Assembly: GCA_903831005.1 (NCBI GenBank)
Contig: CAIKWA010000151.1
Coordinates: forward strand, 1-35,698
Origin: an uncultured Opitutia bacterium
GTDB taxonomy: Bacteria > Verrucomicrobiota > Verrucomicrobiia > Opitutales > UBA953
Length of the DNA stretch: 35,698 nucleotides
Reading direction: 5' to 3'
How positions within the stretch are numbered: position 1 is the first letter of the stretch; each line of letters starts with the position of its first letter. The translations under genes and the position numbers were made by a program. The notes under the pieces are model-generated. The model was not told where the DNA came from, ran no database searches, and saw only the letters and a list, made by a program, of their open reading frames with translations. Positions 12,992 through 35,698 of the stretch are shown piece by piece.

Positions 12992-13384
12992 ATGGATTTC
13001 GACGAAGCTGTCCGCCTCATCCGCCAGAAGGATTCCCGTTATCAGCCTCAAGCGTATGACGTTGTGCGCGTGGGACTCGATCACGCGCAGAAACTCATCC
13101 ATGGTGAGCCGAAGAAAGGCAAGAGCACCGTGAACCGCCATGTGAGCGGCCCGCAGTTGCTTGAAGGGTTCCGACAGCACGTTCTGGAGACGTATGGCCC
13201 GATGGCCTATCCGCTCCTGCATAACTGGGGGCTGCGCAAGTCGGCCGACGTCGGTAACATCGTCTTCAATATCATCGAGACAGGGCTGTTCGGTCGTTCG
13301 CCTGAGGATAACCTCGAGGACTTCAAGGAAGTCTACGACTTTAAGGACGTCTTCCAGAAGCCGTTCGAACCGAAGTCGAATTAA
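12992..13384 (+). CDS. Minf_1886 family protein (function unknown)
   Basis: 130 residues, recognised as the short conserved protein of planctomycetes and verrucomicrobia named after Methylacidiphilum Minf_1886. Family features: FDEAVRLIRQKDSRYQPQAY, then a central HVSGPQLLEGFRQHVLETYGPMAYPLLHNWGLRKSADVGNIVFNIIE. No signal peptide, membrane segment or catalytic signature is visible; it is predicted cytosolic. It begins 2 bases after hisC. It ends immediately next to the end of the convergent HAD-DciA gene, with no base between the two stop codons. Confidence 0.85.
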   Translation: MDFDEAVRLIRQKDSRYQPQAYDVVRVGLDHAQKLIHGEPKKGKSTVNRHVSGPQLLEGFRQHVLETYGPMAYPLLHNWGLRKSADVGNIVFNIIETGLFGRSPEDNLEDFKEVYDFKDVFQKPFEPKSN

Positions 13385-14440
13385 TCACGCGTTCACAAAG
13401 CTGATGGATCGGACTTCCTGGCATCCGCGCAGGAGTCTAATCTTGGCCAGCATTGCCCGCTCGTGGAAGCGGATCTCCGACTTAATCACGGAGTTCTCGC
13501 ACTGGACGACGAGCTTACCTCCCTCCAGGACCCTCAGGGGGGCTGAGCGCTTGGCTAACTTGACCGGTAGTAGTTCCAGCCAATGGGCTACGATGGCCGT
13601 CTCTGGTACGGGCTTGTCGAGGCGCAGCTTCTTGAAAGCGTCCTGCACCGCGTCGTCGATCGTCTTCATCGCGCGATCGGTGGAGCGCCCGCGGTCCTCC
13701 GGCAGGCCGCGCAGGTTGGCCAGGAGATTCTGGACAGTCCGTGAGAACTTTCCTTTGAGTTTTCCTTCGGTCAGTAAAGCCCGAATCGCATAGGGCGCTT
13801 CAGAAATCTTCTCGTTGCGCAGACAGCGATCGGGAGCGTGCGCACCGCCGACGACCACACCAGTGGCGCCGGCATCACGAGCCCCTTCGCCGTCTTCCGT
13901 CGGGCTATCGCCAAAGTGCACGAGGCCAGAGACCGATCCGCCGAGCGCCCGGGCCGCCTGTCCAAAGGCCTTGGGGTCAGGTTTGGAATGCCCGGTGTCT
14001 TCGGAGAGGAAGATGCCATCTAGGTGTCGCGTCAGTCCATGGCCTTCGAGGACCTTACGCATCCGGCCGTCCGCGTTGGAAAGTACCCCGACCTTCACGC
14101 CGAGGAAGCGGATGGCGGAGATTGCCTGCAGTGATCCTGGGGCTAGGCGCCAGGATTCGGGGCGCGCGAAGGCTTCCCAGCATTCCTTGAAGACGGCGTC
14201 TATTTTAGAAGACGGGAGGGCCGGCCCGAAGCAACGCTGCACGACTTCCTTCCAGAAGACTTCGGGTTTGGCGTTCTTCGGTCCACCCTTGAACGCCAAC
14301 GGGAACGACGCATCAAGCACGGCGGACTCAATCTCGATACCGTGTCGCTTCGCGCAGGCCGCATACACCGCGCCGACCGAAGGGTGCGGGAAGAGCAGGG
14401 TGCCTGCTAGGTCGAAAGTGACGGCTTGGACGCGGGCCAT
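13385..14440 (-). CDS. HAD-like hydrolase fused to a DciA (DUF721) domain
   Basis: One 351-residue reading frame with two parts. Residues 1-225 are a HAD fold of the REG-2/HDHD3-like subclass: motif I FDLAGTL (Asp10, but Ala12 in place of the second Asp), motif II VLSN (Ser121), motif III GHSKPDP (Lys153) and motif IV HFGDSPTEDGEGARDAG (Asp178, Asp183). Residues ~231-351 match DUF721/DciA, the replicative-helicase loader found in bacteria without DnaC: LLANLRGLPEDRGR, HWLELLPVKLAKRSAPLRV, GGKLVVQCENSVIKSEI. No ATG, GTG or TTG lies at the domain junction, so separate translation of the DciA part is not evident. ATG at 14440. The HAD and DUF721 calls are firm; what the fusion means is open. Confidence 0.82.
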   Translation of the reverse strand: MARVQAVTFDLAGTLLFPHPSVGAVYAACAKRHGIEIESAVLDASFPLAFKGGPKNAKPEVFWKEVVQRCFGPALPSSKIDAVFKECWEAFARPESWRLAPGSLQAISAIRFLGVKVGVLSNADGRMRKVLEGHGLTRHLDGIFLSEDTGHSKPDPKAFGQAARALGGSVSGLVHFGDSPTEDGEGARDAGATGVVVGGAHAPDRCLRNEKISEAPYAIRALLTEGKLKGKFSRTVQNLLANLRGLPEDRGRSTDRAMKTIDDAVQDAFKKLRLDKPVPETAIVAHWLELLPVKLAKRSAPLRVLEGGKLVVQCENSVIKSEIRFHERAMLAKIRLLRGCQEVRSISFVNA

Positions 14441-31273: not shown

Positions 31274-33466
31274 TCAGCGCAGGAACGCTTCGTGGAGGCC
31301 GCCGTCGACGGTGATGACCTGTCCGGTCGTCTTGCTGAGGCGGTTGGTCACGAGTAGGAAGTAGGCTTCAGCCTGGTCGGCGGGGGTGATGGGGTTCTTC
31401 GTCAGGGTGCGATCGGCGTAGAAGCGGGAGAGCTTCGTGGTCAGTGAATCGGTCGCCTCATCATCGGTGTAGGGAATATTGTACTTCGCAAGTGACGCGA
31501 TCACTCGGTCGCGTGGGAACATCGCCGAACCCTGCACAACGGTGGCTGGGGCCACGCCGTTGACGCGGATAAGGGGGGAAAGCTCCATGGCCATCTCGCG
31601 GACGAGGTGGTTGGCGGCAGCCTTGGAGGTATCGTAGGCGACGGAACCCTTCTTAGCCACGGCGGCGTTGGCGCTGGTGGTCAGCACGAGGTTGCCGCGG
31701 AGACCCTGTTCCTTCCAGGTCTTGAAGGCTTCGTCGGCGACGAGGTAGCTGCCGGTGACGTTGAGGGCGAAGGTGAGGGCCCACTTGTCGTCCGGGATGT
31801 GGCCAGTGGTGTCCGGAGAGACGAAGATCCCGGCGGTGACGCAGATGGAGTCGAAGCCGCCGTAGGCGAGCGCGACCTGGTCGAGCATCTTGCGGATTGA
31901 GGAGCGATCCATGATGTCACCCGAGAGACCGATAGCCGGACCGCAGTTGGAGAGACCCGTGCCAGCGACGCCGATGCCAGAGCCGAGCTTGTCGGTGATT
32001 TCCTTGGCGGTGCCTTGGGCCGCTTCGACGTTCTTGTCGACGCACACGATATGGGCGCCTTCCTTGACGAGGCGATGGGCGGTCTCCTTGCCGATGCCGG
32101 AACCAGCGCCGACGACGATGATGACCTGTCGGGCGAGTTCCTTCTCGGCCGGCATGCGCTTCAGCTTCGCTTCCTCGAGCAGCCAGTACTCGATGTCGAA
32201 GGCTTCCTGCTGAGGCAGGGCGATGTACTGGTCGATGGCTTCGGCGCCGCGCATGACTTCGACGGCGCAGTTGTAGAACTCGGCCGTGACGCGGGATTCG
32301 GACTTATCCTTGCCCCAAGCAATCATGCCGAGGCCGGGGATGAGAACGACCGTCGGGTTAGGGTCGCGCATCGCCGGGGAGTTCGGGCGCTTGCAGGCAT
32401 TATAATAAGAGGCGTAGTCCTTGCGGTATTGTTCGAGCGCGGCGGCCAGCTTGGTCTGCAGTGCGACGGCGTCTTCGGTCTGAGGATTCCAGTTCACGTA
32501 GAGCGGCTTGATCTTCGTGCGGAGGAAGTGGTCAGGGCAGGAGGTACCGAGCTCAGCGAGGCGAGGGGCGTCCTTCGAGTTCACGAAGCGAAGGATCTTC
32601 TCGTCGTCCTGGACGGTGCCGATGAAGCGCTTCTCCTTCGAGACCTGGCCACGGAGCCAAGGCAAGATGGCGGCGAAGGCCGCATGGCGTTTATCCGTGT
32701 CGAGGGTCTGATAGAGCGCGCCGCCGAAGGCCTTGGCGTCGCCGCCTTTGGCCTGGTACTTGGCGTCGATATAGGCCGCGGCCTGCTCGATCATCGAGAG
32801 GGTCAGTTCATAGCAGACCTTGTCGTCGTCGTCCCAGGAGATGAAGCCATGCTGGCCCATCATGATGGCCTTGATGGCGGGCTGCTGGCGGGAGATGTCC
32901 TGCATGGCGAGGCCGAGCTCGAAGCCTGGACGCATCCACTTCAAGTAGGCCATCTTACCGGCGAAGATCTCCTTGGTCAGCGCTTCGCAATTCTTCGAAG
33001 CGGCGATCGAGATAATCGCGTTGGGGTGCATGTGGTCGACATGCTTGCCGGGAAGGAAGCTGTGAAGAGGGGTGTCAATCGACGACGCGCGCGGGTTCAG
33101 GTTGAAGGTGGCGTGGTTATACATCGCGACCATGTCGTCTTCGGCCTGGGACTTGAGGCCCTTGTCGGTGCGAGCCGCATAGGACTTCTGAAGGCCGACG
33201 AGCTTGTCCTGATAAAGGGAGGAGAAGTTCTCGCGGTTGCTGGTGCGGAGGTCGCCGCCGGAACCTTTGACCCAGAGGACTTGGGTGTCGGTACCGGTCA
33301 GGGGGTCCTTCTCGATAATCTTGGAGGAGGTATTGCCGCCACCGGTATTCGTGATGCGCTGGTCGGCTCCGAGTTTGTTGGAGCGATAGACCAGACGGCC
33401 GACCGGATCGAGCTTCGCAGCTTCGGCATCGTTCCAGAGGTGAGAGACGTACTTGTAGTTGGACAT
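31274..33466 (-). CDS. rhaDE: Bifunctional rhamnulose-1-phosphate aldolase/L-lactaldehyde dehydrogenase
   Basis: 730 residues in two domains. Residues 1-~430: class II aldolase (RhaD-like) that cleaves rhamnulose-1-P to DHAP and L-lactaldehyde, with metal-ligand region HVDHMH (His142, His145, His147) and GQHG (His206). Residues ~445-730: short-chain dehydrogenase with VVGAGSGIGKETA (453-459), Tyr611 and Lys615 in AYDTSK, and C-terminal TGQVITVDGG; it oxidises lactaldehyde to lactate. This is the RhaD/aldolase-ADH fusion known from several bacteria. rhaB lies 39 bases upstream and the lut scar 4 bases downstream. The gene symbol is descriptive. ATG at 33466 with no Shine-Dalgarno sequence. Confidence 0.95.
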   Translation of the reverse strand: MSNYKYVSHLWNDAEAAKLDPVGRLVYRSNKLGADQRITNTGGGNTSSKIIEKDPLTGTDTQVLWVKGSGGDLRTSNRENFSSLYQDKLVGLQKSYAARTDKGLKSQAEDDMVAMYNHATFNLNPRASSIDTPLHSFLPGKHVDHMHPNAIISIAASKNCEALTKEIFAGKMAYLKWMRPGFELGLAMQDISRQQPAIKAIMMGQHGFISWDDDDKVCYELTLSMIEQAAAYIDAKYQAKGGDAKAFGGALYQTLDTDKRHAAFAAILPWLRGQVSKEKRFIGTVQDDEKILRFVNSKDAPRLAELGTSCPDHFLRTKIKPLYVNWNPQTEDAVALQTKLAAALEQYRKDYASYYNACKRPNSPAMRDPNPTVVLIPGLGMIAWGKDKSESRVTAEFYNCAVEVMRGAEAIDQYIALPQQEAFDIEYWLLEEAKLKRMPAEKELARQVIIVVGAGSGIGKETAHRLVKEGAHIVCVDKNVEAAQGTAKEITDKLGSGIGVAGTGLSNCGPAIGLSGDIMDRSSIRKMLDQVALAYGGFDSICVTAGIFVSPDTTGHIPDDKWALTFALNVTGSYLVADEAFKTWKEQGLRGNLVLTTSANAAVAKKGSVAYDTSKAAANHLVREMAMELSPLIRVNGVAPATVVQGSAMFPRDRVIASLAKYNIPYTDDEATDSLTTKLSRFYADRTLTKNPITPADQAEAYFLLVTNRLSKTTGQVITVDGGLHEAFLR

Positions 33467-33505
33467 GTTTGTTACGTGGAAAGTGAGAGGTGTGAGTAAG
33501 GGGTT

Positions 33506-34975
33506 TTATGATTTCTTTAAACCATTAAACTTCGCGTGAGCGGCGGCCCATGTGGACGTCGGATTAGGTTTGTAAGTCACTACCTCAAAGGAGTTTCTGA
33601 CGACCTTACGTAATTCATCCAGGTTCTTGAGCTCCTTCATGGCGATGGCTTGGACGAGAATGTTCCCGGCGGCCGTGGCTTCGACCGGTCCAGCAATCAC
33701 TGTGCGACCTGTGGCGTCTGCCGTGGCTTGGTTGAGCAGCGCGTTGCGGCAGCCGCCGCCGACGATGTGGAGTCGCTTGAGCTTACGGCCGGTCAGTTTC
33801 TCCATGCCGTCCAGCTCGACGCGATAGAGGAGCGCGAGCGACTCGAGCACGCAACGGGCGATCTCGCCGTGTGTCTTCGGTACTGGCTGCTTAGTCTCGC
33901 GGCAGAAGGCTTGGACCTTCGCGACCATGTCCCCGCGCTTGGCGAAGCGAACGTCGTCTGGACGGATGAACGAGCGAAGCGATGGAGCTTTGAGCGCAAG
34001 CTTCACGATTTCACCGTAGTCGGAGACTTCACCTTTCTCCATCCATTCGCGACGGCATTCCTGCAGCACCCAAAGACCGACGAGATTCTTGAGGAAGCGC
34101 GAAGTACCACCGAAACCGACTTCATTGGTATACTTGGCCTTACGGACGGTCTCATTCACGAGCGGCTTGGGGAGTTCGAGTCCGATGAGCGACCAGGTGC
34201 CCGAGGATAGGTAAGCCCAATCGTCGCCCTTGGTAGCCGGGACGGCGGCGACGGCGGCGGCGGTGTCGTGGGCACAGGTCGTTACTATCTCTGCCTTGCC
34301 GAGTCCGGTTTCCTTGGCGAGATACGGCAGCAACTTGCCCAGCTTCACGCCAGGAGCGACAGGCTTGGGGAAGATGTGCTTCGGGATGCCGAGCTTCTTC
34401 AGCACCGGCCAAGCCCAATCGCGCTTACGGGTATCCCAGCACTGACTGCCGGAGATCAGGGTCTCTTCGGCGCGAGCCTTGCCGGTCAGAAGCCAGGTGA
34501 TGTAGTCGCCGATGAGGAGAAATTTGTCCGCGAACTGGAGCATCTCGGGGCGGTTCTCGGCGTCGTCGAAGAGCTGGTAGAGAGTATTGATTGAGATCGA
34601 GGCGATGCCCGTACCTTCGAAGATCTCCTTCTGGGAGAAGCGGCGCATGGCCAGTTCGTAGGATTTGAAGCTGCGTTCGTCGCGATAAGTGAAGGGGAGC
34701 GAGAGCAAGGGGCCATCACCTTTGAGCAGGACATAGTCGACGCCCCAAGAGTCACAGGCGATGGACTTGATTGGGCCGAGCTTGGCGCCCTTGGCCAGAC
34801 CGATACGGATTTCGCGGAAGATGCGGATGATGTCCCAGCGGAGGGTGCCGTTGGCGGTGATGGCACCGTTGGAGAAACGATGGATCTCCTTCATGGTGAA
34901 TTTCCCGGCCTTAAGCTGGCCGAGGATAACGCGGCCAGATTCGGCTCCGAGGTCGATGGCGAGGTAATTGGACAT
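33506..34975 (-). CDS. rhaB: Rhamnulokinase
   Basis: FGGY-family sugar kinase phosphorylating L-rhamnulose at position 1. 489 residues from the ATG at 34975. Motifs: YLAIDLGAESGRVILGQL (RhaB-type phosphate-binding start), SIACDSWGVDYVLL, LPFTYRDER, SISINTLYQLFDD, CAHDTAAAVAAVPA, YLSSGTWSLIGLE, HIVGGGCRNALLNQATADATGRTV (FGGY C-terminal), AGPVEATAAGNILVQA. A TTG two codons upstream (34981) is possible but not family-like. The leader is pyrimidine-rich with no Shine-Dalgarno sequence. It sits between the class II aldolase and rhaDE in the rhamnose operon. Confidence 0.95.
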   Translation of the reverse strand: MSNYLAIDLGAESGRVILGQLKAGKFTMKEIHRFSNGAITANGTLRWDIIRIFREIRIGLAKGAKLGPIKSIACDSWGVDYVLLKGDGPLLSLPFTYRDERSFKSYELAMRRFSQKEIFEGTGIASISINTLYQLFDDAENRPEMLQFADKFLLIGDYITWLLTGKARAEETLISGSQCWDTRKRDWAWPVLKKLGIPKHIFPKPVAPGVKLGKLLPYLAKETGLGKAEIVTTCAHDTAAAVAAVPATKGDDWAYLSSGTWSLIGLELPKPLVNETVRKAKYTNEVGFGGTSRFLKNLVGLWVLQECRREWMEKGEVSDYGEIVKLALKAPSLRSFIRPDDVRFAKRGDMVAKVQAFCRETKQPVPKTHGEIARCVLESLALLYRVELDGMEKLTGRKLKRLHIVGGGCRNALLNQATADATGRTVIAGPVEATAAGNILVQAIAMKELKNLDELRKVVRNSFEVVTYKPNPTSTWAAAHAKFNGLKKS

Positions 34976-35006
34976 GGTCAAAGGGGGTAGGGGAGGGGTA
35001 AGAAGG

Positions 35007-35698
35007 TCACATTCCTAGCATCTTCTGGCGATAATGCTCATCCGGGCGTCCCGCGATGCGTTCACACTGGGCGGCGGTCAGGAACACCGGACCGCCGAGG
35101 GCGGCGGCACCGACGAAAATCTCAGCGGCTTTCTCGGCCATGAGCAGGGAACCTAGGACAGCCTTGGGGGAGGAACCGACGGCGATAATGCCATGGTTCT
35201 GAAGCAGGATAATCTTAGGGTCGCGTCCCGTGCGTTTGACGAACGAGACGACTTCACGACGGATGGCCTGAGAGAGACCAAGGCCAGGTTCGGCGTAAGG
35301 CACGAAGACGGACTCGACGCCGCACATCACGATTTCGTCCGGGCACGTGCGTTTCTCGGCGAACTCGCGGGCCCGCGGCGAACAGAGAATCTGGTTCACC
35401 GCGATGGCGTGCACATGACCGACGCAGTGGACGTGGGGAAGGGTGAGCAGGTAGGCGTGAAAGAGGGCTTCAATCGAAGGCTTCTTGTCGGCCGGCTCAA
35501 ATCGTGACGCCAATAAGGCTTGGTCGATCTCAACGTCGGTCGCAGCAGTCGCGTCCAGCAGAGGGAGCAGTCGGTCGAAGGCACAGCGGGTGACATCGGA
35601 CTCCTTGAGCGATGCGAGGTTGGAACCAGAGGCTTTGACCGCAAATGAATGGTCGTCCAGCCGGACGGAAGTATTGCCTTCGCCCAGGATTGTCATGC
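35007..35698 (-). CDS. Class II aldolase/adducin family protein (N-terminus outside window)
   Basis: Zn-dependent sugar-phosphate aldolase or epimerase of the FucA/RhaD/AraD fold. 229 residues are visible from an internal Met; the true start lies past the right edge, because LGEGNTSVRL is normally preceded by ~20 residues. Visible features: substrate phosphate-binding GEGNTS and KASGSNL, KPSIEALFHAYL (Glu), the metal-ligand pair in VGHVHAIAVN, and NHGIIAVG (His). It is probably the first of the rhamnose operon genes in this window, 31 bases before rhaB. It is separate from the aldolase domain of rhaDE, so it may act on another 6-deoxysugar such as L-fuculose-1-P, but substrate is not shown. 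Confidence 0.87.
   Translation of the reverse strand, partial: MTILGEGNTSVRLDDHSFAVKASGSNLASLKESDVTRCAFDRLLPLLDATAATDVEIDQALLASRFEPADKKPSIEALFHAYLLTLPHVHCVGHVHAIAVNQILCSPRAREFAEKRTCPDEIVMCGVESVFVPYAEPGLGLSQAIRREVVSFVKRTGRDPKIILLQNHGIIAVGSSPKAVLGSLLMAEKAAEIFVGAAALGGPVFLTAAQCERIAGRPDEHYRQKMLGM

Follow-up and report, generated by a model that had tools for sequence, protein, structure and literature searches.

DciA, the ancestral and most widespread of the bacterial helicase loaders, is usually a small protein that stands alone. What, then, is to be made of a gene in which DciA forms the C-terminal end of a haloacid dehalogenase-type (HAD) protein? The gene lies within a window of 35,698 nucleotides (the whole stretch of DNA analyzed here) from an uncultured bacterium of the Opitutales. 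We consider whether the two parts truly constitute one protein, how they came to be joined, and what a HAD domain might contribute to the loading of a helicase.

The fused gene and its surroundings

The gene is a single open frame encoding 351 amino acids (Table 1), with HAD at the N-terminus and DciA at the C-terminus, as the original prediction had it. Both Pfam families are readily recognized: PF00702 covers residues 5-191 (78.2 bits, E = 1.4e-21) and PF05258 (DciA) residues 261-348 (49.6 bits against a cut-off of 24, E = 4.6e-13). The likeness to DciA extends beyond the Pfam match, as residues 232-253 (FSRTVQNLLANLRGLPEDRGRS) resemble the N-termini of stand-alone DciA proteins, for example that of L016 (MAFSRKIENLIANLRGLPEDTSRS). 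Since homology to DciA begins near residue 232, the linker between the two parts is short, about 15 residues.

An AF2 model of the fused protein has a mean pLDDT of 68.8, a moderate value owing to an alignment that held close relatives only. Confidence is low in the C-terminal (DciA) part, where a KH-like fold would be expected, and the model does not define how the two domains are arranged. Foldseek searches with the model gave only HAD folds among the matches listed, HDHD3 the best of them.

Adjoining the stop codon of the fused gene is a convergent gene of the Minf_1886 family (TIGR04138), whose function is unknown. The surroundings are kept throughout the genus, with MutS, LplA, RfbD, HisC, and TIGR04138 on one side of the fusion and PanE, NadB, CorC, and HisF on the other. 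Farther off in the window, a cluster judged by eye from the list of open reading frames resembles one for the use of L-rhamnose, with a rhamnulokinase-like kinase, a class II aldolase-like protein, and a 730-amino-acid protein that looks like a fusion of aldolase and dehydrogenase.

Table 1. Positions in the window of the fused gene, its parts, and other genes mentioned in the text
Feature	Position	Strand	Remarks
Fused HAD-DciA gene	13385..14440	-	ATG start, 351 codons plus stop
HAD domain, REG-2/HDHD3-like	13796..14440	-	Residues 1-215; PF00702, TIGR02252, 3k1z
Codon of nucleophile Asp10 (motif I, TFDLAGT)	14411..14413	-	Invariant in alignments A1 and A3
Codon of Ala12	14405..14407	-	Site of the +2 acid/base Asp in HAD phosphatases
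Junction/linker	13742..13795	-	Residues 216-233; dN/dS 0.071, no conserved start codon
N-terminal DciA segment (FSRTVQNLLANLRGLPEDRGRS)	13682..13747	-	Residues 232-253; aligned to stand-alone DciA of other families
In-frame ATG (Met258)	13667..13669	-	Not conserved; inside the DciA part
DciA/DUF721 domain, with conserved Trp287	13397..13660	-	Residues 261-348; PF05258; profile match to 7ykm
TIGR04138 gene	12992..13384	+	131.7 bits
Sugar-catabolism cluster	31274..35696	-	

Conservation of the fusion within the family

The window belongs to the UBA953-type family of Opitutales (f1), a family of freshwater bacteria. Of the 79 genomes of this family that were searched, 67 gave a match to DciA. Complete fused frames were read in 54 genomes covering all five genera (g1, g22, g23, g24, and g25), and none was split: the two-domain architecture was present in all, with no stop codon and separate start between the domains. 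HAD is intact in 50 of these and a remnant in four. The short frames seen in G023, G201, G640, and G637 run off the ends of contigs.

An independent gene for DciA, which would have spoken against the fusion, is likewise absent from the family. The genome containing the window (a metagenome-assembled genome, or MAG, 62% complete and in 193 contigs) has one DciA, and in each of three members of the genus that are 97-99% complete, no second DciA was found beside the fused copy. The same is true of all matching genomes of the family except G282, with an additional 59-amino-acid piece at the edge of a contig, and G021 (Verrucomicrobiota bacterium BS8). The latter carries two fused copies (L055/L072 and L054/L092), 96% and 64% identical to that of the window, most likely because the bin is mixed and not because the gene was duplicated. 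On a separate matter, two MAG records titled Akkermansia muciniphila (L085) and Polynucleobacter meluiroseus (L089) contain the Opitutales locus and so represent mislabeled or contaminated bins.

The fusion is evidently old, as the identity of fused proteins to that of the window falls to 27%. Among 27 species of the genus, dN/dS is 0.130 for HAD, 0.070 for the core of DciA, and 0.071 for the junction (the last over 73 pairs). A value at the junction as low as that of the DciA core shows that the junction is translated in the fused frame, and these ratios mark it as a region under strong purifying selection. One frame kept open and conserved in five genera goes well past anything chance would produce. 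Judged by comparison of sequences, the fusion is real, inherited, and ancient.

Probable origin from a pair of adjacent genes

Outside the family, DciA frames are short, and the gene is separate from that of HAD. Several long frames at first sight suggest otherwise (394 codons in G092, 425 in G570, 775 in G545, 276 in G484, 291 in G527, 291 in G434, 264 in G433, and 331 in G223). These were read one by one and rejected as HAD fusions, for a HAD domain was found in none of them; the stretches that precede DciA seem to be open only spuriously, the DNA being GC-rich. The length of a frame is therefore no evidence in itself, and what counts within the family is the match to HAD.

Eighty-three other genera were tested with a profile of HAD (A3), and 25 gave an orthologue, with the limit set at about E = 1e-60. 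In nine of the 25 (G040, G043, G068, G050, G053, G055, G164, G192, and G140), spread over six families (f5, f8, f15, f18, f20, and f21), it is the gene immediately before dciA, with both on one strand; in the other 16 the two are not adjacent. The pair is also adjacent in G173 (f20), from outside the 83-genus sample. In three families (L034, L145, and L160), the stop codon of HAD overlaps the start codon of dciA in the sequence ATGA, the usual arrangement for translational coupling, from which one frame-changing insertion or deletion yields a fusion. It is most likely, from these sequences, that the fusion arose in just this way, by a change of frame in a translationally coupled gene pair.

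A single event would be the simplest reading of the trees. That of HAD has one branch (support 90/99) separating the fused forms from the unfused (together with one remote HAD). The tree of DciA likewise has one branch that parts fused from separate forms, with support of 43/24, and that weak support makes a single origin likely but not proven. As for what the pair says about function, most other genera either have the HAD orthologue at another place in the genome or lack it, and this speaks against taking a strong functional link between HAD and DciA as proven.

State of the HAD domain

The HAD part is most closely related, among solved structures, to human HDHD3 (3k1z, E = 9e-44, profile A3 against PDB). 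It also matches the REG-2-like family TIGR02252, with 137.5 bits, below the curated cut-off of 155.2. The nucleophile, Asp10, is invariant in 15 diverse fusions (alignment A1) and 14 HADs (A3). Motifs II-IV are present as well (Ser121-Asn122, Lys153, Gly177-Asp178, and Asp183), and apart from Ser121 these residues are also invariant among the diverse fusions. The motif IV GD is replaced by GN in three members of the genus g1 (L024, L066, and L067), perhaps a sign that the constraint on catalysis is relaxed in a second place as well.

At the +2 position of motif I, phosphatases and phosphomutases of the HAD type use an aspartate as acid/base. The fusions have Ala, Ser, Thr, Val, or Phe, and Asp is never found, even in the unfused orthologues. 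A classic phosphatase mechanism is thus doubtful, and was so already before the fusion.

HAD has decayed altogether in part of genus g25. In G232, G627, G629, and G263 the fusion is kept, but what lies in frame with DciA (loci L134, L135, L136, and L179) is a degenerate HAD that has lost its cap, motifs II and III, and the nucleophile, the only cases in which Asp10 is missing. Three other members of the genus (G256, G278, and G628) have an intact HAD. Three of the remnants were included in the tree of DciA, where they group as a supported clade (98/88). Since a dead, capless HAD is still fused in this sub-clade, catalysis by HAD is dispensable there for the loading function of DciA. The lineage offers a natural control by which catalytic roles of HAD might be separated from structural ones.

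The DciA part and helicase loading

The DciA part of the window's protein had no match by phmmer in PDB; a profile of Opitutales DciAs does match a solved DUF721 domain, 7ykm (E = 4e-5). Trp287 is invariant in alignments A1 and A5 and probably corresponds to W113 of Rv0004. Each of the three members of the genus that are 97-99% complete has a single DnaB, as does the genome containing the window. No DnaC/DnaI-like loader was recognized in a search of eight genomes with PF01695, which matched only AAA+ frames the size of DnaA (by frame length) and one broken IstB of IS21 (in G278).

In Caulobacter, the DUF721 domain of DciA binds single-stranded DNA together with an N-terminal extension, whose length and structure vary widely between bacteria, and a C-terminal extension binds DnaB (PMC12547741). 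The Opitutales DciAs that were read (L034, L047, L016, and others) end at DUF721 and seem to have no C-terminal extension of the Caulobacter type, so their contact with DnaB may differ from that in Caulobacter.

What the fusion may do

The gene is a vertically inherited fusion, and its product is probably the sole helicase loader, with HAD an accessory N-terminal module. According to this account, dciA was directly preceded in ancestral Opitutales by the gene of a REG-2/HDHD3-like HAD (with the ATGA overlap in some families). The two would have merged into a single frame before the UBA953-type family diversified, in its ancestor, and the product would serve as the cell's only DciA loader, with HAD as a large N-terminal extension. 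To judge from its family, the DciA part presumably continues to recruit DnaB and to help load this helicase onto single-stranded DNA. HAD is most likely an accessory module, placed where other DciAs have the variable extension that supports binding of single-stranded DNA. Perhaps it binds a ligand or retains some HAD side activity, given that most lineages retain Asp10, Lys153, Asp178, and Asp183 under purifying selection. The chain, we infer, stays uncut and loads DnaB, with HAD modulating the loading.

The main rival to this account is that a small insertion or deletion joined two cotranslated genes and was fixed because it did no harm, HAD keeping a metabolic job of its own with no effect on loading. 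This is possible, if not probable. In its favor are the ATGA overlap in three families, the separation of HAD and dciA in most genera, and the g25 clade in which HAD decays while the fused DciA is kept. Against it stand the position of HAD just before dciA in nine genera of six families, a junction as constrained as the DciA core, and 54 genomes without a gene that has been split again.

HAD might instead be a switch that gates DnaB loading in cis in response to a ligand or to phosphorylation. The signal would be an aspartyl-phosphate on Asp10, whose turnover might be slow for want of the +2 Asp, or else the binding of a phosphometabolite. This more specific proposal is doubtful, but if it were true, the loader itself would couple replication to metabolism. 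The original prediction thought of a link between helicase loading and a phosphate- or nucleotide-sensing domain; such sensing is a conjecture, the +2 Asp being absent from fused and unfused HADs alike and one sub-clade keeping a catalytically dead domain in the fusion.

It is decidedly improbable that the one frame gives rise to two proteins, with DciA also made alone by initiation within the frame or released from HAD by cleavage after translation. The original prediction held that there is no start codon at the junction, and indeed no ATG, GTG, or TTG is conserved at residues 222-234 among the relatives compared. There is, however, an in-frame ATG at residue 258, within DciA, which might serve such a purpose, but it is missing in many relatives, and a protein begun there would lack the N-terminal segment that DciA proteins conserve. 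Moreover, the frame stays open through the decaying HAD of g25. Finally, the notion that a sequencing error, a chimeric contig, or readthrough of a stop codon joined separate genes, raised in part by the original prediction and made conceivable by the fragmentary source MAG, is refuted: independent assemblies of 54 genomes, from five genera, all show the fusion, synteny is kept across the genus, and the junction contains no stop.

How the loading activity of DciA is controlled is an open question. The permanent covalent link, along with genes that often lie side by side in relatives, makes HAD a candidate for partnership with the loader, a proposal that can be tested. No paper naming haloacid dehalogenase together with either DciA or DUF721 was found among the freely available papers searched, and within that scope the architecture, its conservation across the family, and the ancestral gene pair appear to be undescribed. 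Both domains are themselves members of known families.

Comparison with known systems

With REG-2-like HADs (TIGR02252 and HDHD3), its best matches in NCBIfam and PDB, the HAD part shares the lack of a +2 Asp, motif I of HDHD3 being TWDVKDT. It differs from them in scoring under the TIGR02252 cut-off and in being joined to DciA. With the DciA family (Caulobacter, Vibrio, and the mycobacterial Rv0004), the fusion shares PF05258, the conserved Trp, and a setting in which it is the only DciA, beside a single DnaB and no recognized DnaC/DnaI. Elsewhere, however, DciA is small and stands alone, whereas here it makes up the C-terminal third of a HAD protein, one that stops at DUF721 without the C-terminal DnaB-binding extension of Caulobacter. 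Another parallel is the unfused pair in the six other Opitutales families, with the same HAD orthologue in the same order and on the same strand, in three cases with the ATGA overlap. There the pair encodes two separate proteins, while in the UBA953-type family it encodes one chain.
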